28,942 bases of DNA from a virus, in the IMG/VR virus record IMGVR_UViG_3300017744_000100, positions 1-28,942 of that record, one strand, 5' to 3'. Below are positions 1 to 27,934 of the stretch, piece by piece; position 1 is the first letter of the stretch; the number at the start of each line of letters is the position of its first letter. The position numbers and the translations under genes are program-made. A model generated the notes under the pieces. The model searched no databases. It worked only from the letters and a program-made list of their open reading frames with translations, and was not told the origin of the DNA.

Positions 1-654
1 ACTAGTATTTGTGTTCCTATATACTTTGTCAAAGTCAAGTCCGAGCTCATCACAACACCTGGCTCCATCCTGAAGAATGTCAAACTTATCACCATCAAGA
101 TAAGGGGTAATATAGCTAACGCGCTCAGCGTCCCAATTACCTTCGGTGAAGGCTGTATAGTCAGCGTCCCTGAATTCTTGTCTACAATCAGGATAAATTG
201 CATGATCGCCTGCATGAATACCCATTGCGATATTGACTTTTGTATCTTTTTCATTTGCTACTGATAATGCTACTGCTTGAATAATTGATGAAAATATTTT
301 ATTACGGTTAGGAACAACTGTTTCCTTCATATTATCTTGTTCATAGTGTCCTTCGGGCACTTCATCTCCACCTTCTACAAGGGCACTATTAAGCATAGGG
401 GCCAAACCATCAAGTTTAATGGTTCCGTATTTTACTTTAGGGTATACTTTAACTAAATTCCCATCTAAATTAGGTTGAATAGCTTTTTCATTAATATAAT
501 CTACTAATGATTGGGCACGTTCAAGTTCTACTCTATGTTTTTGCCCATAATCGAAAGACAGTGCTGTTACCTCATAGCCATCTGCCAATAACCTTAGTAA
601 CACTGTGGAGCTGTCCATACCTCCACTTAATGATAGTACTGCTTGTTTATTCAT
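1..654 (-). CDS. queC: 7-cyano-7-deazaguanine (preQ0) synthase QueC, C-terminus cut by window edge
   Basis: QueC converts 7-carboxy-7-deazaguanine to preQ0 using ATP and ammonia. I translated this frame from the ATG at 654; it stays open to base 1 (218 codons). The PP-loop ATP-binding motif SGGMDSS lies at residues 10-16, followed by LSFDYGQKH, a typical QueC segment, and by VPNRN, IAMGIHAGDH and YPDCRQEF, which match the conserved core. The C-terminal zinc-binding cysteine cluster would lie beyond the window, so its presence cannot be judged. The start overlaps the stop of the upstream nuclease gene by four bases (ATGA), implying translational coupling. Together with the queD-like and dpdA-like genes just upstream, it points to a DNA-modification role, although host tRNA queuosine synthesis is an alternative use of the same product. 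Confidence 0.95.
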   Translation of the reverse strand, partial: MNKQAVLSLSGGMDSSTVLLRLLADGYEVTALSFDYGQKHRVELERAQSLVDYINEKAIQPNLDGNLVKVYPKVKYGTIKLDGLAPMLNSALVEGGDEVPEGHYEQDNMKETVVPNRNKIFSSIIQAVALSVANEKDTKVNIAMGIHAGDHAIYPDCRQEFRDADYTAFTEGNWDAERVSYITPYLDGDKFDILQDGARCCDELGLDFDKVYRNTNTS

Positions 655-1130
655 TTTTTATCGTTGTTTTCTACGTTTAAATGTTGGTCTTTAGTTTCAT
701 GGGTCCAAATACCATCAGCATTATATTCATGCCAGTATACTCTATTTTTCTGGATAGCATCTTTAATATTACGTTGCCTTTGGTTTAAATTACTTTCACC
801 ACTTTTAACTTCGAGAAAATGTACTGCGCATTTTTTCTTGGATCCCATATCTGTAAACGCAATATAATCAATAGGATTACCAAAAAATCTTATATCATTA
901 GGGTTGATTGGAAAATTTTCCATAAATGGTACATAGTGTTCGATTGTTTTTCCAAAACTAACAGCTCTAGATCTTTGATATGCATCTTCTCTAATTGCTT
1001 TTTCCTCTTTCATTTTCCACTTAGCCAATTGTGCTTCGGCCTTTCGTTCAGCAAGCTTATCATGGCTGAAATACACATATGCTGCAAACGCTAATGCACA
1101 TATAGTAATTGTAATTAAGACTAAATTCAT
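651..1130 (-). CDS. Membrane-anchored PD-(D/E)XK nuclease, Holliday-junction-resolvase-related
   Basis: This 159-aa protein starts with one hydrophobic segment (residues 3-21), then a charged, probably coiled-coil stretch (about 24-50), then a compact nuclease-like domain. The core has GKTIEHYVPF (60-69), RFFGNPIDYIAF (81-92) and FLEVKSG (105-111). D88, E107 and K109 fit the catalytic PD-(D/E)XK pattern, and E64 fits the helix-1 acidic residue. The pattern resembles the family annotated as predicted endonucleases distantly related to archaeal Holliday junction resolvases. It overlaps both neighbours by four bases (ATGA), so it is translated within the deazaguanine gene cluster. Its substrate is unknown. 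It could process recombination intermediates, or act on DNA that lacks the modification; the second idea is speculation. Confidence 0.75.
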   Translation of the reverse strand: MNLVLITITICALAFAAYVYFSHDKLAERKAEAQLAKWKMKEEKAIREDAYQRSRAVSFGKTIEHYVPFMENFPINPNDIRFFGNPIDYIAFTDMGSKKKCAVHFLEVKSGESNLNQRQRNIKDAIQKNRVYWHEYNADGIWTHETKDQHLNVENNDKK

Positions 1131-1918
1131 AAATTATTAATTTTTCTAAACATCTTAGTGTTGTATAAAATGTTTTCTATTTGTTTGGGGTTTATTTCGC
1201 GAGTAAAATTCTCGTCAATTTTTTCTTTGTCTTTATGTAATAAACCCCCTTCAGAATACCTAATTCCTTTTAAACCATGTATAACTGGGTTAGAAGTATC
1301 TATAGATTCTATAAATTTAAAATCCTTATAATAAAGGTATTCTTGAGGTAAATTACACCCTAAAAGATGAACTCTATCCATATCACTTATAAGTTTATCT
1401 TTATAAAGGTTAGTAATAGTTTTTAAACGACCCATCATTTTAGCTACATATGGGTTTGGGTGTTTAAAACATTCCTCAAACCAAGATGCCCCATAACTAA
1501 AAGATATTTTTTGGTAACCAAACCATTTGTATGATTGGTAGCTATTTACAAAATCTGAATATGATTTACCCTGTACAACGGCTACTTTAGTTGTATTATC
1601 AGGTACTTCTATACTTGCCCATATTTTAGCGTTTCTTACGCTATAAGTGGCATTTTCCCAGACATCGGGGATAATAAATTCGTTAGGTTCTAATTCAGAA
1701 ACCCAATGTAACAAACGTGATGTATCATATGCTTCTCCTAATTCATGTAGTGAGTTATCCATAATTATATATCTACCCTTTTCTTTAGCTTGTCTAAAAT
1801 AGGCCTCATATTCGGGATACTTATCTAGTAAGTGGGGTAAGCAATAATCATAATCGTTAAAGGTTTCAGATAACCCTAAAAGCTGTAAAGGTACTTCGTG
1901 TGATACTTTAACCTTCAT
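1127..1918 (-). CDS. dpdA: DpdA-like DNA 7-deazaguanine transglycosylase (TGT-fold base-exchange enzyme)
   Basis: This 263-aa protein resembles phage DpdA proteins, distant relatives of tRNA-guanine transglycosylase that swap guanine in DNA for a 7-deazaguanine. Visible signatures are MDNSLHELG (residues 53-61, candidate acid D54), IIPDVW (82-87, D85) and IESIDTSNP (203-211). In the last, D207 sits where the catalytic nucleophile Asp of the TGT barrel is expected. The zinc-binding Cys/His motif of tRNA-acting TGT enzymes is absent: there are only three scattered cysteines (26, 150, 188) and no CxCxxC. That fits a DNA-acting phage form better than a tRNA-acting one. It overlaps the queD-like gene by 11 bases upstream and the nuclease gene by four downstream. 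The assignment rests on motif memory plus the queD/queC context, without a profile search. Confidence 0.75.
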   Translation of the reverse strand: MKVKVSHEVPLQLLGLSETFNDYDYCLPHLLDKYPEYEAYFRQAKEKGRYIIMDNSLHELGEAYDTSRLLHWVSELEPNEFIIPDVWENATYSVRNAKIWASIEVPDNTTKVAVVQGKSYSDFVNSYQSYKWFGYQKISFSYGASWFEECFKHPNPYVAKMMGRLKTITNLYKDKLISDMDRVHLLGCNLPQEYLYYKDFKFIESIDTSNPVIHGLKGIRYSEGGLLHKDKEKIDENFTREINPKQIENILYNTKMFRKINNL

Positions 1919-2372
1919 ATATAGCAGTATTTTTACCGTGTTCCATAAATTCTACTTTAGCAATCTTGACTCTCCCATCTGTTTCTTCTTGAACAAATGG
2001 ATTAAGCTTATCAAAAATAAACTTAGCAAACTGTTCAGCACCAGTAGCTGGAATTTCCCTTAATTGAATTATCCCATCTTCGTCCATCTTTCTAAAATGT
2101 TCAAGATAAGGATCATCAGTTGCTACTACTGTGGTGTGATCAAACATATAATCCATCCACATTTTAGCACTCATACCATCAATTTCGGTTTTAGCACGTT
2201 TCATACCACCAAAATCCCATACCCAATTTTTTTCATCTAATTCTCCTTCGAACCAAACTCTAAAACTAACCCCATATCCATGAAGGAATCTACAGTGTGT
2301 TCCTGTTGCTTTCCATTGACGAAACACTGTACTGAATCCGTCAAATAATTTTGTTGATTGAAATTTTCCCAT
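1908..2372 (-). CDS. queD: QueD-like 6-carboxy-tetrahydropterin synthase, divergent zinc site
   Basis: QueD converts dihydroneopterin triphosphate to 6-carboxy-tetrahydropterin, the second step towards preQ0. The 154-aa length and motif order fit the PTPS/QueD fold: THCRFLHGYG (25-34), LDEKNWVWDFGGMK (45-58), FDHTTVV (77-83), a PATGAEQFAKFIF helix (108-120) and a final FMEHGKNTAIYEG. The catalytic-type C27, H79 and a C-terminal Glu (E141 or E144) are kept. Of the usual three zinc histidines only H31 is clear: the first is replaced in FSTVFRQW (Phe at the expected place) and HGH has become HGY (Y33). H26 could substitute as a ligand. I recall similar FRQW/HGY forms in bacteria and phages annotated as PTPS-family proteins, so this is probably a subfamily rather than a dead enzyme. 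It precedes dpdA with an 11-base overlap. Confidence 0.82.
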   Translation of the reverse strand: MGKFQSTKLFDGFSTVFRQWKATGTHCRFLHGYGVSFRVWFEGELDEKNWVWDFGGMKRAKTEIDGMSAKMWMDYMFDHTTVVATDDPYLEHFRKMDEDGIIQLREIPATGAEQFAKFIFDKLNPFVQEETDGRVKIAKVEFMEHGKNTAIYEG

Positions 2373-3416: not shown

Positions 3417-5126
3417 TTAACCATCACAAGAAACACATTCTGCTGTTCGAGATCCTAAATCTCCTTTAATAACAGAATCCGTTCTAAGATAGTAAAGGGT
3501 TTTAACTCCTAATTTCCAAGCTTCCATATGACATTGATTTATCCATTTAGGGGAATCAGTAGGATCAAAGCTTAGATTAAGTGATTGTGTTTGGTCGATG
3601 TATTTTTGTCTAATAGCTGATTGACGAACTAGTTCAAGTTGATTTACTTCACTAAAAGTTAAAAATACTTCTTTTTCTTCTTCAGTAAGAATATCGTGAG
3701 GGAGATTTTGTACTGACCCATTATCGGCAAGAATTTGGTCCCAAACTTTTTCAGTATTTTTATCTTTAGACTTTAGTAACTCTTCTAATTCTTTATTTTT
3801 AACGATAAATGTTCCTTTGGCACCATTAAATGTATAAATATTAGCTGGAATAGGTTCAATACCTGCTGAACAACTATTTAATCTAGAATTAGATACAGTT
3901 GGGGCAATAGCAAGTAAGTGGGTATTCCTCATACCTGTACCTTTGCACCATACAGGTTCACCATATTCTTGGGCTAATTCTCTTGATGTTGCTTCTGCTT
4001 TTTGTCTAATGTCACTAAACAAAGTATGAGTCCAAGCTGTTGATGCAATTGAATTAAATGGTAATCCTTTCTTCTGTAGAAATGAATGCCATCCCATAAC
4101 TCCTAAACCAAGTGCTCTACCTTTTTGGGCATGTCTATGGGTACGGATCATTGAATCCTTGCCATTTGATTTATCTATAAATTCTTGCATAACTCCGTCG
4201 AGGAACCTAATTGAGGTTTCAACAACGTCTGTGTCTTTCCACTCATCATACTTTGCAAGATTGAGGGAGCTAAGACAGCAGATAAAGGAATGTTCTTCAT
4301 CGGTGTGTAATGTTATTTCTGTACAGATGTTAGTCATAGTAACATCAAGATTATTCATTGCGTATGCTAAAGGATTGTTTTTATTAACATTATCCTTAAA
4401 CATAATGTAGGGTTCACCAGTTTCGACTCTAGTTTTTAAAATATCAAGCCATAATGACATAGCTTCACTGTCTCTATCTTGTAAACGACGCATAAAAGCA
4501 TCATCTACAACTACACATTGATGGAGATTAAGGCATTGTCTGTTAGGATCACCTTTAGGTCTGCGAATTTGCATAAATTCTTTAATATCAGGGTGGTTGA
4601 TATCTAAATTTACTGAAGCTGCACCTCTACGAACTGAACCTTGGTTAGTTGCAATAATTGCTGAATCATAAATTTTACACCAAGGTACTACACCTTCGGA
4701 TTTACCATTACCTGTAATTTCAGTTCCTCTAGGGCGAATTCGACTTGTTGAAATACCCACACCACCTCCAAGTGCTGTAAGTTTCATAAGTTCAGCGTTT
4801 GTTAATCCAATTCCCCTAATGCTATCAGGTGTATCGATACCAAAACAAGAGATAGGCAAACCCCTATCGGTCCCAGTGTTAGATAACACGGGAGAAGCAA
4901 GGCCAATCCAACCATTCCAAATATATTTGAAGAACTTATTTTCAAGCTCAGGTCTGCGTATCCTTTCGGAGATAGCTTTTGCGACTCGTCTGTATGCTTT
5001 TCTTGGTGTTTCATCTGGCAATAAATACCCTTTTGAAATAGTTGCTACACCTACTTCATCCATCCATTCGGGAAAGTCCTTTCCCTTCACCCATTGGGTG
5101 GTATCTGCTACTAAATTTCCGTCCAT
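3417..5126 (-). CDS. nrdA: Ribonucleoside-diphosphate reductase, large (alpha) subunit
   Basis: The alpha subunit reduces ribonucleotides to deoxyribonucleotides for phage DNA synthesis. Key class I residues are visible: PISCFGI (C94, substrate-site cysteine); NICTE (N266, C268, E270, the radical cysteine triad); FICCLSSLNL (C283/C284, partner cysteine); TLYYLRT (Y545/Y546, radical-transfer tyrosines); and a C-terminal CVSC pair (564/567) for re-reduction. At 569 aa it is much shorter than E. coli NrdA. The N-terminal ATP-cone domain is missing, so dATP feedback through that domain is not expected. The gene starts three bases after nrdB ends, so the two subunits are co-translated from one message. 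Confidence 0.97.
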   Translation of the reverse strand: MDGNLVADTTQWVKGKDFPEWMDEVGVATISKGYLLPDETPRKAYRRVAKAISERIRRPELENKFFKYIWNGWIGLASPVLSNTGTDRGLPISCFGIDTPDSIRGIGLTNAELMKLTALGGGVGISTSRIRPRGTEITGNGKSEGVVPWCKIYDSAIIATNQGSVRRGAASVNLDINHPDIKEFMQIRRPKGDPNRQCLNLHQCVVVDDAFMRRLQDRDSEAMSLWLDILKTRVETGEPYIMFKDNVNKNNPLAYAMNNLDVTMTNICTEITLHTDEEHSFICCLSSLNLAKYDEWKDTDVVETSIRFLDGVMQEFIDKSNGKDSMIRTHRHAQKGRALGLGVMGWHSFLQKKGLPFNSIASTAWTHTLFSDIRQKAEATSRELAQEYGEPVWCKGTGMRNTHLLAIAPTVSNSRLNSCSAGIEPIPANIYTFNGAKGTFIVKNKELEELLKSKDKNTEKVWDQILADNGSVQNLPHDILTEEEKEVFLTFSEVNQLELVRQSAIRQKYIDQTQSLNLSFDPTDSPKWINQCHMEAWKLGVKTLYYLRTDSVIKGDLGSRTAECVSCDG

Positions 5127-5129
5127 AAT

Positions 5130-6113
5130 TTAAAATATTGATTCGTCCCAGGACATATTGCCCTTAGAATAGTTAGTTACTCGACTTGCAAAGAAGTCAG
5201 TGTGTTGTTTACCTGCTGATAAAGAATCAAACCATTTCATTCTTTTAAGAGCATTAGGATCAATCCCATTAACAACACCATCATAACCCAAATCTCCCAT
5301 TTTAGTATTAACTCTATGTTTAATAAATGAAATTAAATCATCTTTATTACACCCTTCTAAATCACCCATTTCATATACTTTTTCTATAAAATCAAGTTCA
5401 AGTTGTAAAGAAAGTAATGCGGCTTCTGTTATTGCGGTTTTGAGCTCCGGAGTGTTGAGCTCAGGGTTTTCCTCGATAAGTGTTCTAAATAACCAGCATC
5501 CTGCATCTGAGTGCATTGATTCGTCTCTAATAGACCATTCAACAATTTGACCCACTCCCTTAAGTCGGTTTCGCATCTTAAAAGAGAGTAGTATGGCGAA
5601 TGACGAAAATAAATTGACTCCTTCTGTGAAGGCAGAGAATATGGCAAGTGACTTGGCAATTTCATGCCAATCCTTTTCGCCACTAAAACTATCCCTAACA
5701 GACATAAGATTTTCAATTTTAGCCATCGTAGTTTCATCTTCGAGAAATTCTGAGAAGTCATCAAGTCCAAGTTCTTCATTTAATAGTGAATATGCTTCGG
5801 CGTGTATAGTTTCCATAGCCCCAAAAGTAGTCGCCATTGCTATGATTTCAGGTTTTCTAAACCATTTAGTCACTAACCCTGTCCAGTAGTCATTTACTAC
5901 TGTTTCTGTTTGTGCAAAACCTTTTAAAATAGAACCAATTATATTTTTTTCTGTTTCGTTTAAATTTTGTTTCCAATCGTTAATATCACTCATCATTGGA
6001 ACTTCTGTATGAATCCAATGAGCTTGTTGTTGTTTAAGCCAATAGTCAGCCGCTTCGGGATATTCAAAGGGTTTATAGACAATTCTCTCTTTTTTTAGGT
6101 CTTTTTTTGCCAT
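5130..6113 (-). CDS. nrdB: Ribonucleoside-diphosphate reductase, small (beta) subunit
   Basis: The 327-aa beta subunit holds the di-iron centre and tyrosyl radical used by NrdA. The expected ligands can be read off: E70 (FAQTETVV), E101 and H104 (METIHAEAY), E164 (FTEGV), and E198 and H201 (RDESMHSD). The radical tyrosine is Y108, seven residues after E101 as in E. coli. A Tyr rather than Phe or Leu at this place argues for a normal class Ia-like radical. The order nrdB-nrdA is the reverse of the E. coli operon. A 48-base gap with A/T-rich promoter-like text (TATATACTGTATTTATC) separates it from the upstream helicase gene. Confidence 0.97.
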   Translation of the reverse strand: MAKKDLKKERIVYKPFEYPEAADYWLKQQQAHWIHTEVPMMSDINDWKQNLNETEKNIIGSILKGFAQTETVVNDYWTGLVTKWFRKPEIIAMATTFGAMETIHAEAYSLLNEELGLDDFSEFLEDETTMAKIENLMSVRDSFSGEKDWHEIAKSLAIFSAFTEGVNLFSSFAILLSFKMRNRLKGVGQIVEWSIRDESMHSDAGCWLFRTLIEENPELNTPELKTAITEAALLSLQLELDFIEKVYEMGDLEGCNKDDLISFIKHRVNTKMGDLGYDGVVNGIDPNALKRMKWFDSLSAGKQHTDFFASRVTNYSKGNMSWDESIF

Positions 6114-6161: not shown

Positions 6162-7505
6162 CTAGAGATTAAATATATTTTCAGCAGCCCTCTGGAGATT
6201 CCTTCTTTCGTTTCCCGTAAATCCAGCTCCATCAGGGCCGCTTGGTTCTTCGTTACTTATGCGATCTGTAAATGTTATTTTCCCCATTGAGGTATCCATA
6301 AGAGCATTAAATGTTAAACCATCAGCTCCATATCTATTTTTCATAACATGGAATCTTCCTGTACCATTTTCTTTATCTTCTGTTTTTCTTGATAGTGAAA
6401 GGGCAAAGTCTGAAATCATAATTTTGGAATAACTTTCAGCGATTTGGTCTCCTTGAATGATATTATCTCGAGCTGCTGATCTATTGCTTTGAGATGCTGT
6501 CCAAATTGGGATTTTTAATTCAGTAGCCATACCTCTTAATGAAGTATAGATATCATCTAATCGATCTCGTTTTTCTTTTCCATTTTTGGTGTATAAAAGG
6601 TCTGCGTAATCTAACACGATAAGGTCAGGTTCAATACCTTGGCCACGACATTTATCTATATGCGCTAATATCGTATTTACATTGGCTTTACCTGCAGGAT
6701 ATTGTTTAATATATAACTTTCCTCGTAGGTTTTCTAATTCCTTTTTAACTTCTGACTTATGGATTTTAATATCTCCAACAGGAATCTCTGTAAAGAAGGC
6801 ATCATATCTTTGACCAACATACATGTCTGAAAGTTCAAGGGTATAATGTAAAACTGTATACCCTAACTTAACAGCATGTCCTCCTAAAGCAACTAATGCC
6901 CATGATTTACCACCACCTGGGTTACCTACAAGTAAGGCAAGATCACCTGTTCCTATACCACCATTTAAAAGGTGGTTAATTTCACCCCATGGTGTTTCAA
7001 TAGTATTCCTAGCTTCTTCCTTATATCGTTCCTCAATTTCATCCATATAATCATGTCCAAGATTCTTTTCTACACCTGCTTTAAGTGCATTATCAATAAG
7101 ACGACGAATATCTTCATAATTCCCTATTTCAAGTAGATCAACGGAGGAAAGAAGGGCAGATTTAAGTGTTTGGTTCCGACAGAAATCAAGAAAAGTTTGT
7201 TTGACATAATCTAAATCAGGGGATTTAGTAGATTTAAATGTTTCTTTAAGTTGTTCTTTTACAGCAACTTGTTGAATTTCATTTCTAATATTTTCTACTT
7301 CAACCTTAAATACCTCCATTGTAGGAGTGGTCCTAAATTCGTTAAAATATTCAAGGGTTTTTGATATAATCCACTTATTTGCTTCATTATCAAAGAAATC
7401 AGGTGAAACTATATCTGCAACTTGTTGTAAAAATTCTTTATCCTTAACTAATACCGAGAGGGTTTTAATTTGAAAATTATGTCCGTATTGTTCTAACTTA
7501 CTCAT
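6162..7505 (-). CDS. dnaB: DnaB-type replicative DNA helicase (T4 gp41 counterpart)
   Basis: This 447-aa protein is a RecA-fold hexameric helicase that unwinds DNA at the phage fork. It has Walker A GNPGGGKS (194-201), Walker B LIVLDYADLL (295-304), a downstream ASQSNR segment typical of DnaB motif H3, and ISDFALSLSRK near the arginine-finger region. The N-terminal half (1-150) is helical, as in DnaB/gp41 N-terminal domains. Its start overlaps the end of the 5' nuclease gene by eight bases, continuing the run uvsX, nuclease, helicase. No primase gene is visible in the window. Confidence 0.93.
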   Translation of the reverse strand: MSKLEQYGHNFQIKTLSVLVKDKEFLQQVADIVSPDFFDNEANKWIISKTLEYFNEFRTTPTMEVFKVEVENIRNEIQQVAVKEQLKETFKSTKSPDLDYVKQTFLDFCRNQTLKSALLSSVDLLEIGNYEDIRRLIDNALKAGVEKNLGHDYMDEIEERYKEEARNTIETPWGEINHLLNGGIGTGDLALLVGNPGGGKSWALVALGGHAVKLGYTVLHYTLELSDMYVGQRYDAFFTEIPVGDIKIHKSEVKKELENLRGKLYIKQYPAGKANVNTILAHIDKCRGQGIEPDLIVLDYADLLYTKNGKEKRDRLDDIYTSLRGMATELKIPIWTASQSNRSAARDNIIQGDQIAESYSKIMISDFALSLSRKTEDKENGTGRFHVMKNRYGADGLTFNALMDTSMGKITFTDRISNEEPSGPDGAGFTGNERRNLQRAAENIFNL

Positions 7506-8517: not shown

Positions 8518-9658
8518 TCTCTACTATAGTTTCGTCAGGATCACGATCTAGACCATCTTCTTTCTCGTGACGATACTTCATAATGTATTTTTCACAAAGG
8601 GCCTCATATAATTCCTCTTTAGCTGTTGGGTGACTTTCTAATAAATCGCCAAATTCTTTAGCTAAAAACTGATGTGTTTCACCATCAGCAGTAGTGTATT
8701 TATACCATGCTCCACCTTGTTTTACTACACCATATTCTTTAAGTAATTTCAAAGTACCAAAGTAATCATCAATTCCCGAATCGTAAAATACGCTATAACG
8801 GACTTTTCGGTTAGGAGGGCCTAGGCGGTTTTTGACTACCTCACATTCTACTTCTTGACCAACTACTGTGTCTATACCATTAACCTTTTCTTTAATCTTA
8901 CCTACTCCTTTGAGTCGTAAGCGAACTGAGGCATGGAATTGTAGCGCTTTTCCTCCTGATGTTGTGTATTGATCCCCAAACGGCATAGCGTTTAGTTTCT
9001 GTCGTAACTGATTTGTAAATACACACAGGATTTTCTGTTTACCAATTAAATTGGTAATCTTACGCATTGATTTAGACATGATAATGGCTTTTGCAGTTGC
9101 ATAACCATCTTTATCGTAGTCAGCTGCTGACTCAATTTTAGTAGTAGCAGCAGCAACACTATCAACAACAATTGTGACTAATCTGTCTTTTTGTTTTTCG
9201 CGAATCTTAACGATGATGTCTTCCATTGCTTCAAATACATCCTCAATTGTATCAAGGGGTATATAAAGCATTTTATCAACATCAACTCCTATGGCGGTCA
9301 AAAATTGAGCGTCCAATGCTGATTCAGTGTCTACATAAATTGCTACTCCACCCTGTTTTTGAGTAGAAGCTATAACGTGAGCGGCAAGGAGGGATTTACC
9401 GCTTTGCTCTAGGCCCGTAATCTCAACAATCTTACTAACGGGCAAACCCCCATTTGGTCTGTTAGAAATCGCCAGATCCAAAGGTGTGCATCCAGTAGAT
9501 ACCCACGATGTAACATCTGTTGGTGATTCTTCTCCCCCATTGAGGAAATAGGCAACTTGATTATATTCTTTACTGAATTTTTTATTTAGCGATACTGCTA
9601 GTTCTTCAGTAAGACTTCCTCCTTCTGGGAGCGAATTGTTGGATTTTTTTCTCACCAT
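8510..9658 (-). CDS. uvsX: UvsX/RecA-family recombinase
   Basis: This 382-aa ATPase drives strand exchange in phage recombination and recombination-dependent replication. Walker A GLEQSGKS is at 82-89, Walker B VTIVVDS is at 161-167 with D166, and TSGGKALQFHASVRLRL (L2 and following strand) lies further on, all typical of RecA and UvsX. The N-terminal 30 residues are polar. The C-terminus is acidic (DPDETIVENE), as in RecA tails that modulate DNA access. The gene starts one base after the gp32-like gene ends, and overlaps the nuclease gene by eight bases, so ssDNA-binding protein and recombinase are made from one message. Confidence 0.93.
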   Translation of the reverse strand: MVRKKSNNSLPEGGSLTEELAVSLNKKFSKEYNQVAYFLNGGEESPTDVTSWVSTGCTPLDLAISNRPNGGLPVSKIVEITGLEQSGKSLLAAHVIASTQKQGGVAIYVDTESALDAQFLTAIGVDVDKMLYIPLDTIEDVFEAMEDIIVKIREKQKDRLVTIVVDSVAAATTKIESAADYDKDGYATAKAIIMSKSMRKITNLIGKQKILCVFTNQLRQKLNAMPFGDQYTTSGGKALQFHASVRLRLKGVGKIKEKVNGIDTVVGQEVECEVVKNRLGPPNRKVRYSVFYDSGIDDYFGTLKLLKEYGVVKQGGAWYKYTTADGETHQFLAKEFGDLLESHPTAKEELYEALCEKYIMKYRHEKEDGLDRDPDETIVENE

Positions 9659-9659
9659 A

Positions 9660-10412
9660 TTAACCGAATAAATCGTCTATTTTAGAGTCGATGTCAACTT
9701 TTTCCTTTGCAGGAGGGGTAACCTCAACTGTTTCGTTTTCTTCACTTGGAGCCAAGTACTTTTGAAGAGCATCCTTCATTTCATCAAATGAGAACTTAGT
9801 AAATAATTCCTTAATATCTTTTTGGTTATCAAGATATCCTTCAGCTGCACTACCATCTGTTGAAAGTGGTGATTGTACTGGCTTAACACGAACTGTTGTT
9901 GTATCAAACATTTTACCTGTCTCAGCTGCTGGGATTACTTCAACTGTGATGTCTCGGCCGGCTGCAATATCTGTAATATCGCCATAATCTTCATCCATCA
10001 TAACACCTAAAAGTTCAGTGTATACCATTTTACCAAACTCCCAGAATCGAACACCCTTATCCTCCTCACCACGTACAAGTACAGGAGCGAAAATACGCAT
10101 TTTAGGATAGAGCTTCTTAGCTAACTCTACATTATCTGGTTCATTTGACTTACGGAGCTGGGAAGCAAATTCTAAAATTGGATCAGACTCATCAAAGTTT
10201 GAGAGTGACATCATTCGGGGTTTACCAATACCGAAATAAAAGTATAATTCAGTGAAGGGCACATCTTTATTGTGCTTATAAGGTACAATACGTACTATTG
10301 ATTTTTCTCCACTTGGTGGTTTCCAAAAATTCTTTCTAAATTCACCACCTGATTTTCCGTTGGACTTGTTTTGTAAGCGGTCCATGCGCTTTCTGATTTC
10401 GTCTAGATTCAT
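9660..10412 (-). CDS. ssb: gp32-like single-stranded DNA-binding protein
   Basis: This 250-aa protein resembles T4-type gp32. It has a basic N-terminal arm (LDEIRKRMDRLQNKSNGK, residues 3-20), then KNFWKPPSGEKSIVRIVPY, an OB-fold opening seen in phage gp32-like proteins, then ELYFYFGIGKPRMMSL, and an acidic tail ending DIDSKIDDLFG, the usual SSB partner-binding tip. The zinc-ribbon cysteines of T4 gp32 are absent: I see no Cys cluster. It lies directly upstream of uvsX and the replication genes, the normal company of gp32. Its 66-base leader contains a hairpin and may serve autoregulation, as gp32 is known to do in T4. Confidence 0.85.
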   Translation of the reverse strand: MNLDEIRKRMDRLQNKSNGKSGGEFRKNFWKPPSGEKSIVRIVPYKHNKDVPFTELYFYFGIGKPRMMSLSNFDESDPILEFASQLRKSNEPDNVELAKKLYPKMRIFAPVLVRGEEDKGVRFWEFGKMVYTELLGVMMDEDYGDITDIAAGRDITVEVIPAAETGKMFDTTTVRVKPVQSPLSTDGSAAEGYLDNQKDIKELFTKFSFDEMKDALQKYLAPSEENETVEVTPPAKEKVDIDSKIDDLFG

Positions 10413-24407: not shown

Positions 24408-26141
24408 TTAGTCTTCAAAAGAAGCACCAGTTGGGGTTAAAACAAAGTCAAGAGCTATAAACTCTGCTGTTTTAGTTGGTTGCAGGAACACTTGTCCTAC
24501 AAGTTTATTTTGGTCGATAACATCTGAAGTGTTTAATTGACCATCCATTTTAACTTGGAAAGCATATAATCCTTGTCTTTGGACTAAGTTTTCTAAGTAT
24601 GGGTTAACTTTCCTTAAGAATCTTTGGCGAGTTTCTTCGGTGTTTTGCTCAAAAACAAGTCCTTGGGCAAATCCATTGACTGTGTCTTTTACGTCAAGTA
24701 ATAAACGTCTAACGTTGACTCTATCGAGCGCACTTGCGGCTTGTTGAAGCGTTTTTTGCCCGAATACTACTACACCTTGTCCTGGGAAAGTTGCTAATGG
24801 ATTAACTTTAGATGTATAAAGATCATCACGTTGAGCTTTACTTAATTTAGTTTCAACTTTAGGTACGTTATTTAATCCACCTCTAGTTAAACCAGCAGGA
24901 GCAAACCATGGGGCAGCAATACTATCATTTTTAGCATATACACCCGGAATTATAGTTGAAGCAGGTGCCCAAACATTTTTACCTAAAACCCTACTATTTA
25001 CCTGTACCCATGGCCAGTAAGAGGCAGCGAATGAAGTATCTCTTTCTTCAGCTTCGTTTTTAACATTAGCTACAGTTGCACCATATCCATATAAATCTAC
25101 TACAGCCATATAATCACCTCTAGTTTCGGCATTTTCAATAATAGTAGTAATAGTGCTGTTATGGTCATTATTATTTAATCCAGGAGCTATAAGTGTTTTA
25201 AATTTATATTCTTCCTTATTAGTTAATATAGAAATTGCTTTCGTATAATCTCCAGGTGCTAAACCTTGGATATTAGTTGCACTTGATGCTGATCCATAGA
25301 TAGCAGCAACACTTCCAAAATTATCACCTACACCTGTACCAAAGGTTCCAGATCCTGATTGTGGGAGTAATTGGTCATAAGCTAATCCATCTGAGTTTCT
25401 GGTATTTACGCTACCATTAGCTGCTAAATACTGGTAAGTTGGACTATTTACAGATGAAATTCTTATAAATTTAGACTTGTTAGGATATTCACCTGATAAT
25501 GTTACACTAGATACTCCATTAGTAGTAGTTACAGCTTGTGACTGATCACCTATGGCTTTAGCAATGTAGTTATTAGATAAAGGATCCAAGGATAAATTAG
25601 TAAATTGTTCTAAAATAAGAGGTTTTGAGTTTGTGTCATCCCCCCTTCTAACTACTAAGCTAAAAGTACCAGCTTTTCTATTTACATTAGTTACTTCCCA
25701 TTTGAAATTATCCTTGTTGCCAGTAGCACTGTTTAAATACTCTCCTTTACCTAAGGTACTAATTACAAAGGGATCATTAGTATTATTAGCAGCACCCCCT
25801 ATTGAAGCGGATATAGAAGTTATTGCAGAAGAAGTTGCGGCTGTAAATGTACTTGCATCAGGTGCAACTCTTATTACAAGAGCACTAGCACCACCATTAT
25901 CGAAGTAGTTTTTAACTGCTAGGTTTGTGTATAATTCATAAGCTTGAGAGCCCGATTTTATTACGGTTCCAAAAATATCTTTAAATTCTTGGTAGTTATT
26001 AATCCCTGTAGGGATTTCTACAGGACCTCTTGCAGTAGGACCTATAATAGCCATTCCTGAAGGGTCTGTTCCTGGGGTTATGTATGATTTATCTACTTCT
26101 TGTAGTAATACACCAGGTGATACTAAAGTTTCTGTTGCCAT
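24408..26141 (-). CDS. Tail sheath protein, downstream copy
   Basis: This 577-aa protein is a contractile tail sheath subunit. The N-terminus (LVSPGVLLQEVDKS) is the usual sheath opening. The C-terminal half has SFAASYWPWVQVN, VWAPAS.IIPGVYAKND, SKVNPLATFPGQGVVVFGQ, LDRVNVRRLLLDVK and EQNTEETRQRFLRKVNPYL, all standard sheath core motifs. It ends VLTPTGASFED. It starts 20 bases after the other sheath gene stops and no promoter-like element lies between, so they are probably co-transcribed. N-terminus, C-terminal third and leader are almost the same as in the other copy, while the middle (about 90-300) differs. This suggests duplication with free divergence of the surface domains. Confidence 0.93.
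   Translation of the reverse strand: MATETLVSPGVLLQEVDKSYITPGTDPSGMAIIGPTARGPVEIPTGINNYQEFKDIFGTVIKSGSQAYELYTNLAVKNYFDNGGASALVIRVAPDASTFTAATSSAITSISASIGGAANNTNDPFVISTLGKGEYLNSATGNKDNFKWEVTNVNRKAGTFSLVVRRGDDTNSKPLILEQFTNLSLDPLSNNYIAKAIGDQSQAVTTTNGVSSVTLSGEYPNKSKFIRISSVNSPTYQYLAANGSVNTRNSDGLAYDQLLPQSGSGTFGTGVGDNFGSVAAIYGSASSATNIQGLAPGDYTKAISILTNKEEYKFKTLIAPGLNNNDHNSTITTIIENAETRGDYMAVVDLYGYGATVANVKNEAEERDTSFAASYWPWVQVNSRVLGKNVWAPASTIIPGVYAKNDSIAAPWFAPAGLTRGGLNNVPKVETKLSKAQRDDLYTSKVNPLATFPGQGVVVFGQKTLQQAASALDRVNVRRLLLDVKDTVNGFAQGLVFEQNTEETRQRFLRKVNPYLENLVQRQGLYAFQVKMDGQLNTSDVIDQNKLVGQVFLQPTKTAEFIALDFVLTPTGASFED
24537..24610 (-). repeat. 74-bp block identical to 26291-26364
   Basis: A 74-bp stretch of this sheath gene is base-for-base identical to the other copy, flanked by sequence that differs at many silent sites. 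It encodes the conserved C-terminal segment around NPYLENLVQRQGLYAFQVKM. Confidence 0.85.
24694..24812 (-). repeat. 119-bp block identical to 26448-26566
   Basis: A 119-bp perfect match between the two sheath genes covers SKVNPLATFPGQGVVVFGQ through NVRRLLLD. The 83 bases between this block and the 74-bp block differ at many silent positions, so similarity is patchy rather than graded. Confidence 0.88.
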
Positions 26142-26161: not shown

Positions 26162-27934
26162 TTAGTCTTCAAAGTTAGCTCCTGTTGGGGTAATTACGAA
26201 ATCAAGAGCTATAAATTCCGCTGTTTTAGTAGGTTGTAAGAATACCTGTCCTATTAATTGGTTTTTATCAATTATATCGGCGGTATTATTTTGACCATCC
26301 ATTTTAACTTGGAAAGCATATAATCCTTGTCTTTGGACTAAGTTTTCTAAGTATGGGTTAACTTGTCTTAGGAAACGTTGACGAGTTTCTTCTGTGTTTT
26401 GTTCAAAGACTAATTTTCTAGAGAATCCATCAACCGTATCCTTCACATCAAGTAATAAACGTCTAACGTTGACTCTATCGAGCGCACTTGCGGCTTGTTG
26501 AAGCGTTTTTTGCCCGAATACTACTACACCTTGTCCTGGGAAAGTTGCTAATGGATTAACTTTAGAAGTATATAAAGTATCTCTTTGTGCTTTACTTAAT
26601 TTAGTTTCAACTTTTTTAACACCTGTTACTTTACCACGGGTATTACCTGCGGGTGCAAACCATGGGGCTGCAATACTATCATTTTTAGCATATACACCAG
26701 GTACTATTACAGAAGCGGGTGCCCAAACATCTCTTCTTAAATTTATGCTGGTTACTTGAGCCCATGGCCAGTAAGAAGCAGCAAATGAGGTATCTAATTC
26801 CTCTGTTTTTGTTGTTACTGTGTTTATAGTAGTAGTTCCATATGATACGGGGTCTACTAAAAATAAACTATCACCACGTGTTTCAGTATTAGCAATAATA
26901 GTAGCTATATCTGTAGAATGGTGTTCTTGGTTAAAACCAGGAACTATAAGGGTTTTAAATTTAAATTCTTCTTTATTAGTAAGAATATTAACAGCATCAT
27001 CATAATCAGATGTTTTTAATCCCTGAATATTAACGTTAGCTCCTTCAGTAGAGGCACCTGCATATTGACCATAATCACCTGCTTCGCCTGTAGGAAGTAA
27101 TGAACCTACACCCCCAAAGAAAGCACCACTTTGTGCTGTAGGGAGAGAAGCTGAATAAGAAGTACCTGCAGCGTCTGTTTGTACTGCGTTATTGATTGAA
27201 TATTCATAAGTAGGTAAATTTACATCTTTTACTCTTATAAATTTAGACTTATTAGGGTATTCACCAGAAACTATAATACCAGTAGCATCACTATTTTTAG
27301 TAATTTTTTGATCACCAATGGCCTTAGCAACATAATTAGGTGAAAGGGGATCTAAAGATACACCAGTAAATTGTTCTAAAATAACAGGCTTAGAAGTTGA
27401 ATCATCTCCTCTTCTAACAACTAAAGTAAATGTACCTGATTTATTGTTTATGTTTGTAATTTCCCACCTAAAGTTATCTGCAGATCCTGATTTTAAAATT
27501 CCTCCGGCAAATTTCTCGGGTGCCGTGGTTAATGCGATTGCATTATTGAGACCTTCACCCTCACCTATAGTTTCCAGGGTAAAGGGTTGTGTACTGCTTT
27601 TTGCAGAAGCGGATACATGTGTGCTATCGGCATAATCCCAATTAGCTGAAGAGGATACTACTCTAACTACTAAAAGGCTGGCACCCCCATTATTAAAATA
27701 GTTTCTAGCGGCTAAGCTAGTAAAGTATTCATATCCTTGGGAGGCAGATTCAAATGTAGTTCCATAGGTATCTTTAAATTCTTGGAAATTATTAATTAAT
27801 GTAGGTACCTCAACGGGTCCTTTTACAGCAGGACCAATAATTGCTAATCCTGAAGGGTCTGTTCCAGGAGTAATGTAGCTTTTATCTACTTCCTGAAGTA
27901 ATACACCCGGTGATACTAAAGTTTCTGTTGCCAT
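26162..27934 (-). CDS. Tail sheath protein, upstream copy
   Basis: This 590-aa protein is the second tail sheath subunit, upstream in transcription. It shares the first 29 residues with the other copy except for one change (DPSGL for DPSGM), and the same C-terminal core motifs, ending VITPTGANFED. The middle (about 90-310) is clearly different, including an extra GEGEGLNNAIALTTAPEKFA stretch. It is preceded by a hairpin terminator and a TATTTGTATACAATAAC element, with leader AAAAATAAA before ATG, a strong Bacteroidota-type initiation region. Both sheath genes are intact, so the virion may use both, or one may be an alternative form. Confidence 0.93.
   Translation of the reverse strand: MATETLVSPGVLLQEVDKSYITPGTDPSGLAIIGPAVKGPVEVPTLINNFQEFKDTYGTTFESASQGYEYFTSLAARNYFNNGGASLLVVRVVSSSANWDYADSTHVSASAKSSTQPFTLETIGEGEGLNNAIALTTAPEKFAGGILKSGSADNFRWEITNINNKSGTFTLVVRRGDDSTSKPVILEQFTGVSLDPLSPNYVAKAIGDQKITKNSDATGIIVSGEYPNKSKFIRVKDVNLPTYEYSINNAVQTDAAGTSYSASLPTAQSGAFFGGVGSLLPTGEAGDYGQYAGASTEGANVNIQGLKTSDYDDAVNILTNKEEFKFKTLIVPGFNQEHHSTDIATIIANTETRGDSLFLVDPVSYGTTTINTVTTKTEELDTSFAASYWPWAQVTSINLRRDVWAPASVIVPGVYAKNDSIAAPWFAPAGNTRGKVTGVKKVETKLSKAQRDTLYTSKVNPLATFPGQGVVVFGQKTLQQAASALDRVNVRRLLLDVKDTVDGFSRKLVFEQNTEETRQRFLRQVNPYLENLVQRQGLYAFQVKMDGQNNTADIIDKNQLIGQVFLQPTKTAEFIALDFVITPTGANFED
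26291..26364 (-). repeat. 74-bp block identical to 24537-24610
   Basis: This is the upstream-sheath partner of the 74-bp perfect repeat in the downstream sheath gene. The following base differs on both sides. Confidence 0.85.
26448..26566 (-). repeat. 119-bp block identical to 24694-24812
   Basis: This is the upstream-sheath partner of the 119-bp perfect repeat. The spacing between the two perfect blocks (83 bases) is the same in both genes, so the copies are collinear here. Confidence 0.88.

Follow-up and report, generated by a model that had tools for sequence, protein, structure and literature searches.

Where does the guanine go when a phage replaces it in its DNA by a 7-deazaguanine base? 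In the exchange catalyzed by DpdA, one guanine is released per modified base, as is established for the chemistry of tRNA-guanine transglycosylases (TGTs). The question is raised by an operon in the IMG/VR virus record IMGVR_UViG_3300017744_000100, whose entire 28,942 bp we analyzed (hereafter the window). The operon occupies positions 1–2372 on the minus strand, is read from 2372 toward 1, and consists of four overlapping genes: queD, a dpdA-type gene, a gene for a PF10107 nuclease, and queC. Our answer, which we regard as likely when taken as a whole, is that the operon serves to put a 7-deazaguanine base into the DNA of the phage and that a phosphoribosyltransferase (PRTase) encoded in it recycles the freed guanine. 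The modification part, which we infer from the genes, is very probable; the recycling part is one that we lean toward.

The transglycosylase and the route to preQ0

The queD-like, dpdA-like, and queC genes named in the initial annotation were confirmed by Pfam and PHROG matches, by their overlapping frames, and by the TGT fold described below. The queD-like gene (1908–2372, minus strand) encodes a 6-carboxytetrahydropterin synthase of 154 aa (PF01242, 4.6e-15; phrog_2389, 2e-39). The queC gene (1–654, minus strand; PF06508, 3.2e-35) lacks its 3′ end, with 218 of 278 aa present; because the window spans the whole IMG/VR record, base 1 is the contig end that cuts it off. Starts and stops overlap by 11, 4, and 4 bp along the operon, which fits a single coupled unit. 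The cluster itself adds one more example to a known type of phage 7-deazaguanine DNA-modification cluster. In Hutinet et al. 2019 (PMC6884629), the same minimal set of FolE, QueD, QueE, QueC, and DpdA gives dPreQ0 (the deoxynucleoside of preQ0) in phages CAjan (~32% of Gs) and Rosebush (~28%).

The protein encoded at 1127–1918 (minus strand, 263 aa) is 40.6% identical (3e-56) to the protein annotated as DNA guanine transglycosylase in Flavobacterium phage vB_FspM_immuto (MW353176; immuto below) and 35–36% identical to proteins of the Campylobacter CP220-group phages; in PHROGs it matches phrog_19058 (1.8e-41), a family of unknown function. A Pfam search of it returned no TGT match and only DUF6610 at 0.0016, under the cut-off, and a sequence search of the PDB gave no match. 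The AlphaFold model, made with 20 aligned sequences, has a mean predicted local distance difference test score (pLDDT) of 94.1. Its top Foldseek matches are tRNA-guanine transglycosylases (1.6e-8), and the bacterial DNA preQ0 insertase DpdA (7ui4) was also matched (2.8e-7). Superposition on 7ui4 gave a Z of 17.8 and a root mean square deviation (rmsd) of 3.2 over 233 residues, although the two proteins share only 15% identity and 7ui4 has 413 residues. The profile and family check suggested in the initial annotation thus came out positive, and its remark that the protein lacks the zinc motif of tRNA-type TGTs holds on direct reading of the sequence, which has three cysteines only and no CxCxxC-type motif. 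Among other residues, Asp54 and Asp207 (the latter in a DTS motif) are invariant in all 20 aligned DpdA rows and, from knowledge of TGTs, form a putative catalytic pair. Their conservation is taken from this alignment because the regular expressions written for the two aspartates were too strict (131/171 and 150/171).

A profile of the window DpdA matched proteins of immuto (1.5e-83), CP220 (4.9e-66), MA9V-3 (1.9e-20), CC_R7 (3.0e-14), and phiST (3.3e-13), and found no match in 9g, phiSM, Mendera, Iggy, nt-1, CAjan, or Dp-1. By sequence, the window enzyme is of the CP220/immuto type and stands apart from the 9g type. The former is reportedly the type labelled DpdA3 by Cui et al. 2023. CP220 has FolE as well, but carries neither a PF00156 PRTase nor PF10107, and no preQ0 gene was found within 7 kb of its dpdA.

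The initial annotation noted that FolE and QueE are not visible, which is true of the window but is an effect of the contig end. A second contig, L003, shares 7,853 bp with the window at 99.86% identity. It runs 3,193 bp past base 1, where it carries, in order, the full queC (complete at 7200–8036 of L003), a fasciclin/PKD protein gene, queE (9055–9828; PF04055, 3.2e-7; TIGR03365, 2.2e-14, under its cut-off), a gene for an HGPRT-like PRTase, and folE (PF01227, 2.8e-35). Since queE and folE stand on a near-identical contig, the phage has the whole route from GTP to preQ0. Of the two sources suggested for these enzymes, genes elsewhere in the phage were borne out, and supply by the host is not needed. 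In the related contig L010, the position of folE is taken by folE2 (PF02649, 2.6e-65).

The window QueC has no N-terminal GAT domain, and QueF (PF14489) was not found in any of 20 related contigs, which may be fragments. From these two results, dPreQ0 is the default prediction for the final base and dADG (the 7-amido-7-deazaguanine deoxynucleoside) its main alternative; tailoring by QueF is disfavored by the same search. A final base other than dPreQ0, either dADG or a base tailored by enzymes encoded elsewhere in the genome, is the alternative that survives best, and we hold it to be possible, at less than even chances. It draws on the dADG reported for Campylobacter phages in the discussion section of PMC6884629, the CP220-group DpdA being related to that of the window. 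QueF and a PurN-like gene, both present in immuto and in many of its relatives, point the same way, as does the CxxC zinc-type motif of QueC, present in only 5 of 145 surveyed proteins. Against it stand the missing GAT domain and, within contigs that may be fragments, the failure to find QueF.

Several pathway proteins depart from the expected motifs. QueD of the window and of many other phages has HGY instead of HGH, and FRQ at the expected position of the first ligand; HGH and this position are presumably the zinc ligands of QueD. HGH occurs in 0 of 171 surveyed QueD proteins and HGY in 119, while the QueD of 9g retains HGH. QueC of L003 and its relatives is without the C-terminal cysteine cluster. 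The radical-SAM cysteines of QueE are spaced CX3CX7C in 138 of 178 proteins (L003 and relatives), as against CX3CX2C in 9g, and the spacing is different again in contig L015 and in phiSM. The protein between queC and queE (8073–9047 of L003) combines fasciclin with a weak PKD match, ends in what we take to resemble a type IX secretion signal, and is not at this place in contigs L004 and L010.

A guanine-type phosphoribosyltransferase beside folE

The PRTase encoded between queE and folE in L003 matches PF00156 at 3.9e-22, above the gathering score, and TIGR01203 (HGPRT) at 2.7e-34. Its 118.4 bits fall under the equivalog cut-off of 150, so we call it HGPRT-like only. For the same reason the PRTase near folE in immuto is called XGPRT-like only, with 59.7 of 138 bits (2.4e-16) against PRK09177 (XGPRT/Gpt).

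To see how constant this neighborhood is, viral contigs were searched with DpdA alone and with neighbor genes, and genes were then called with locally built hidden Markov models (HMMs). The HMMs were built from few seeds; the first set was iterated on the loci themselves and the later-added set was not. Each search contributed its best 80 loci, out of at least 586 confirmed relatives in the DpdA search and out of 91, 133, 213 (fused domain, see below), and 165 in the others. We dropped 17 loci repeating already counted contigs before counting gaps and tree changes; the per-query locus counts still include these repeats and near-identical contigs.

Half of the loci found with dpdA as query (46/92) hold folE or folE2. 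All but two of these 46 (the exceptions being L012 and L017) have a PRTase in addition, and in these 44 it is HGPRT-like in 35, XGPRT-like in 9, and never of both kinds. In the other 46 loci, many of them cut short, no folE was seen, and 5 hold an HGPRT-like gene. A pattern search for further open reading frames with the phosphoribosyl pyrophosphate (PRPP) motif in the DpdA-query loci gave none besides the called PRTases. PRTase and folE are close neighbors, with a median gap of 24 bp; in 161 of 179 loci no more than 200 bp separate them. Searches from the side of the PRTase led back to the same genes: a preQ0 or dpdA gene is present in every one of the 80 HGPRT-query loci and in 78 of the 80 XGPRT-query loci, while the remaining two have the PRTase alone, right where the locus begins. 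DpdA itself is on the locus in 51 of 80 in either set. Among 50,697 GenBank phage records, the HGPRT of the window clade was matched in 18 and the XGPRT-like protein in 41.

The two PRTase families take each other's place. A tree was made from 101 dpdA representatives (90% identity, from 171 DpdA proteins of at least 235 aa). It calls for at least 10 changes of PRTase type, 6 of them forced by well supported branches, and FolE and FolE2 are exchanged at least 6 times; this is a quick tree with long branches that includes loci brought in by PRTase queries, and the counts are minima. The PRPP motif is kept in 100 of 101 HGPRT-like proteins (≥150 aa) and in all 88 XGPRT-like proteins (≥110 aa), and base-binding-type motifs in 94/101 and 86/88, respectively.

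Several of the 41 GenBank XGPRT-like matches fall inside genes annotated as GTP cyclohydrolase. In the four that we checked (Vibrio phage VpKK5, Sphingomonas phage MMDA13, ytsc, and Vibrio 1.207.B), an XGPRT-type stretch of about 115 residues at the N-terminus is followed by FolE (PF01227, <1e-68). VpKK5, MMDA13, and their kin resemble the window in having a preQ0 cluster, a DpdA, and a guanine-type PRTase domain, and differ in that their DpdA is of the 9g type and the PRTase is the N-terminal domain of FolE itself. Sequence support for the fused domain is modest, with PRK09177 at 1.7e-8, 1.4e-6, and 5.6e-4 and no match for MMDA13, and PF00156 at 0.0096 at best. A PDB sequence search with the domain brought up XGPRT only at E 0.25 and above, and in a Foldseek search with the fusion all of the 50 matches listed were to the FolE half. 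Profile and pairwise structure comparisons were needed. Profile comparison with hhalign gave 98.2% and 99.2%, and in a model of the fusion (mean pLDDT 88.8) the N-terminal part matched the fold of E. coli XGPRT with a Z of 13.3 over 116 residues (rmsd 5.4) and the guanine complex 1a95 with a Z of 12.8. Among the best 80 of 213 viral loci with the fused domain, the fusion is present in 80, que genes in 78, and dpdA in 74. Sampling instead by 9g-type DpdA (80 loci, Iggy first) gave 33 loci with the fusion, 45 with FolE without PRTase, and 2 with no FolE. In PMC7472734, the MMDA13 fusion is termed plain FolE. The PRTase, as far as these comparisons go, would have joined the module by no fewer than three routes: as an HGPRT-like gene beside folE, as an XGPRT-like gene in that place, and as an XGPRT-like domain fused to FolE.

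Some further arrangements were seen. Brevundimonas phage MaInes has an XGPRT gene directly after folE and no other annotated preQ0 gene in the 10 kb fetched, and Pseudomonas phage MIJ3 has a gpt gene beside queE. In ten loci (L110–L113, L119–L121, and L124–L126), the PRTase–folE pair is intact and lies several kb from a dpdA–queC–queD–queE block. Judged by eye, intein-like insertions stand just before the conserved CEHH in a PRTase–FolE fusion (580 aa; L346, 4896–6638) and in a plain FolE (470 aa; L423, 5573–6985).

Proposed guanine recycling and its rivals

These observations can be joined in the following mechanism. FolE (or FolE2), QueD, QueE, and QueC would convert GTP to preQ0, and the TGT-fold DpdA would remove guanine from finished DNA and insert the 7-deaza base, most likely as dPreQ0, shielding phage DNA from host restriction. 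Each exchange would release one guanine. Guanine is a substrate common to HGPRT and XGPRT, and the PRTase, be it a separate enzyme with its gene between queE and folE or a domain of FolE itself, would combine it with PRPP to GMP, which kinases would raise to GTP, again a substrate for FolE. Its removal would also end its competition with preQ0 at DpdA. Guanine recycling explains at once why the PRTase is linked to folE, why its two families interchange, and why it can be fused to FolE. On balance we favor the view that guanine replacement is often a closed loop, in which the expelled guanine is caught by a dedicated PRTase of the operon, remade to GTP, and passed back through FolE.

If so, guanine salvage would be an unrecognized part of 7-deazaguanine DNA hypermodification. 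Phage 7-deazaguanine DNA modification is known, and the literature passages that we examined do not state the fate of the released guanine. No paper linking a PRTase with phage FolE or DpdA turned up in the literature searched, a search whose scope left aside subscription papers and Cui et al. 2023, and the parts consulted of a metabolomics paper (PMC11981692) hold no passage on guanine for infection. A function is suggested for a gene that is annotated only as phosphoribosyltransferase or is hidden in "GTP cyclohydrolase", and the PRTase may serve as a marker for finding such clusters. A salvage enzyme that is linked, interchangeable, and sometimes fused to FolE also makes for a concrete and cheap test of recycling.

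Several points weigh against this proposal. FolE occurs with a related DpdA and without a PF00156 protein in the Campylobacter phages CP220 and CC_R7, in Chryseobacterium phage MA9V-3, and in the fragment L012, and 45 of the 78 9g-type loci with FolE have no PRTase. Its absence from CP220 and CC_R7 means that it is not obligatory. In phiST, the PF00156 gene is ~17 kb from dpdA. The PRTase also follows FolE more than DpdA: 12 contigs were picked because PRTase and folE or que genes stand on a locus without DpdA; 11 of them, a figure that is not a rate given this choice, have no window-type DpdA anywhere, and a search of these 11 for the 9g type found none, with one weak PF01702 hit. All pathway proteins of the phages except the FolE2 of L010 score under the NCBIfam equivalog cut-offs (window QueD, 29.9 of 89.25 bits), the PRTase evidence for the window lies off-window on L003, and the 92 dpdA-query loci are its closest relatives and not a random sample. 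GMP needs two more kinases before FolE can use it. Finally, modification, base, and recycling are all read from genes, their families, a modelled fold, kept motifs, and conserved linkage.

A PF00156 PRTase was likewise not found in phiSM, Mendera, CAjan, Iggy, 9g, nt-1, or Dp-1. Taken together, and as far as our sequence searches reach, the PRTase appears to be specific to these clusters, most frequent in those of the window type, and not required. Two long contigs, L206 and L236 (111 and 127 kb), have FolE, QueD, QueE, and an XGPRT-like gene and no DpdA by two DpdA profiles and PF01702; in L094, L095, and L016 (112, 122, and 132 kb), dpdA is present and neither a PF01227 FolE nor a PF00156 PRTase was found. 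Complete replacement of guanine is reported for DpdA of the CP220/immuto type. The idea that the PRTase marks a high level of modification is not supported, CAjan (32% of Gs), CP220, and CC_R7 being without it.

HGPRT and XGPRT are housekeeping salvage families, and the PRTase might serve ordinary purine salvage for replication, taking up guanine or hypoxanthine from degraded host nucleic acid with no relation to base exchange. The operon adjoins ribonucleotide reductase genes, many dpdA clusters do without a PRTase, and the 11 contigs noted above without window-type DpdA fit such a role. A general salvage enzyme, however, is at odds with the rarity of its matches among GenBank phages, with the presence of preQ0 or dpdA genes in nearly every viral locus found by either PRTase query, and with direct fusion to FolE, and we find this explanation doubtful beside guanine recycling.

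The fusion would also fit if the PRTase domain were a regulator of FolE, for instance a sensor of guanine nucleotides or guanosine tetraphosphate (ppGpp), and not a catalyst; a ppGpp-bound putative phosphoribosyltransferase (5vog) is among the fold matches. Against such a sensor, 188 of 189 proteins retain the PRPP motif and nearly as many the base-binding-type motifs, and a swap of two families in place is easier to square with a common reaction than with a common allosteric contact, which makes regulation improbable. A PRTase acting on the 7-deazaguanine base itself, with the modified nucleotide entering DNA via ribonucleotide reductase and polymerase, is more improbable still. A modified-dGTP route has been proposed for Campylobacter phages (PMC6884629, discussion section), and the reductase genes are at hand next to the operon; on such a route, though, DpdA with its invariant Asp54 and Asp207 would be unneeded; moreover, the PRTase adjoins mostly FolE and not QueC, and CP220 has no PRTase. 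Only the missing Pfam match to TGT speaks for reading 1127–1918 as a TIM barrel of some unrelated family or as a TGT of the tRNA type, and this reading is as good as refuted by the fold match to TGTs and 7ui4, the link of this type to preQ0 genes in phages, and the missing zinc motif.

The nuclease and the surroundings of the operon

The gene between dpdA and queC (651–1130, minus strand) encodes a 159-aa PD-(D/E)XK-type nuclease with a hydrophobic N-terminal segment that matches PF10107 (Endonuc_Holl) at 6.5e-37, its 127.2 bits being well above the gathering score of 23.8. The initial annotation was right that a nuclease gene stands here, but it is not a stray insertion: all 15 nuclease-query loci hold queC and 14 hold dpdA. 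Glu64, Asp88, and Glu107-x-Lys109 are invariant in 11 of 11 aligned rows and are putative catalytic residues. We considered that the nuclease digests unmodified host DNA and spares modified phage DNA, so that the operon would be a self/non-self pair. The invariant nuclease-type residues are compatible with this, and so are the que or dpdA genes found in 31 of at least 32 loci of the nuclease alignment (28 of 29 newly fetched, plus L006, L030, and L037), the locus without them being L315 (46% identity). On the other hand, the nuclease is present in only 22 of 92 dpdA-query loci, its family is named for Holliday junction resolvase, and in immuto it sits some 24 kb from dpdA; the pairing is an attractive guess that we think unlikely.

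Immuto is otherwise the closest comparison, with QueD 70.7% identical to that of the window, the related DpdA described above, QueE, FolE, a guanine-type PRTase near FolE, and the PF10107 nuclease in its genome. It differs in having QueF and the PurN-like gene, in the XGPRT-like type of its PRTase, in the distant position of the nuclease, and in showing no QueC in the 16.8-kb stretch fetched.

Upstream of the operon and on the same strand lie a gene for a conserved 175-aa protein (2376–2903), kept in L003, L004, and L010 and ending in an AT-hook-like C-terminus (a weak match, E 0.2), then small genes, and then the large (3417–5126; PF02867, 2e-104) and small (5130–6113; PF00268, 3.6e-65) subunits of ribonucleotide reductase, all on the minus strand. 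The initial annotation had seen a T4-like phage that probably infects Bacteroidota. A myovirus with T4-like parts is supported by two tail sheaths, a UvsX-like recombinase, a single-stranded DNA-binding protein, and a DnaB-like helicase in the window; the Bacteroidota host is plausible only. The named phage that best matches the window DpdA infects Flavobacterium, and among eight contigs of metagenome-assembled genomes with this dpdA, three bear the label Flavobacteriales or that of a group within this order, the others including Pelagibacter, Woesearchaeota, and Legionellales labels. The two tail-sheath paralogues are adjacent on the minus strand, at 24408–26141 (phrog_23, 7e-77) and 26162–27934 (phrog_23, 3.5e-73).

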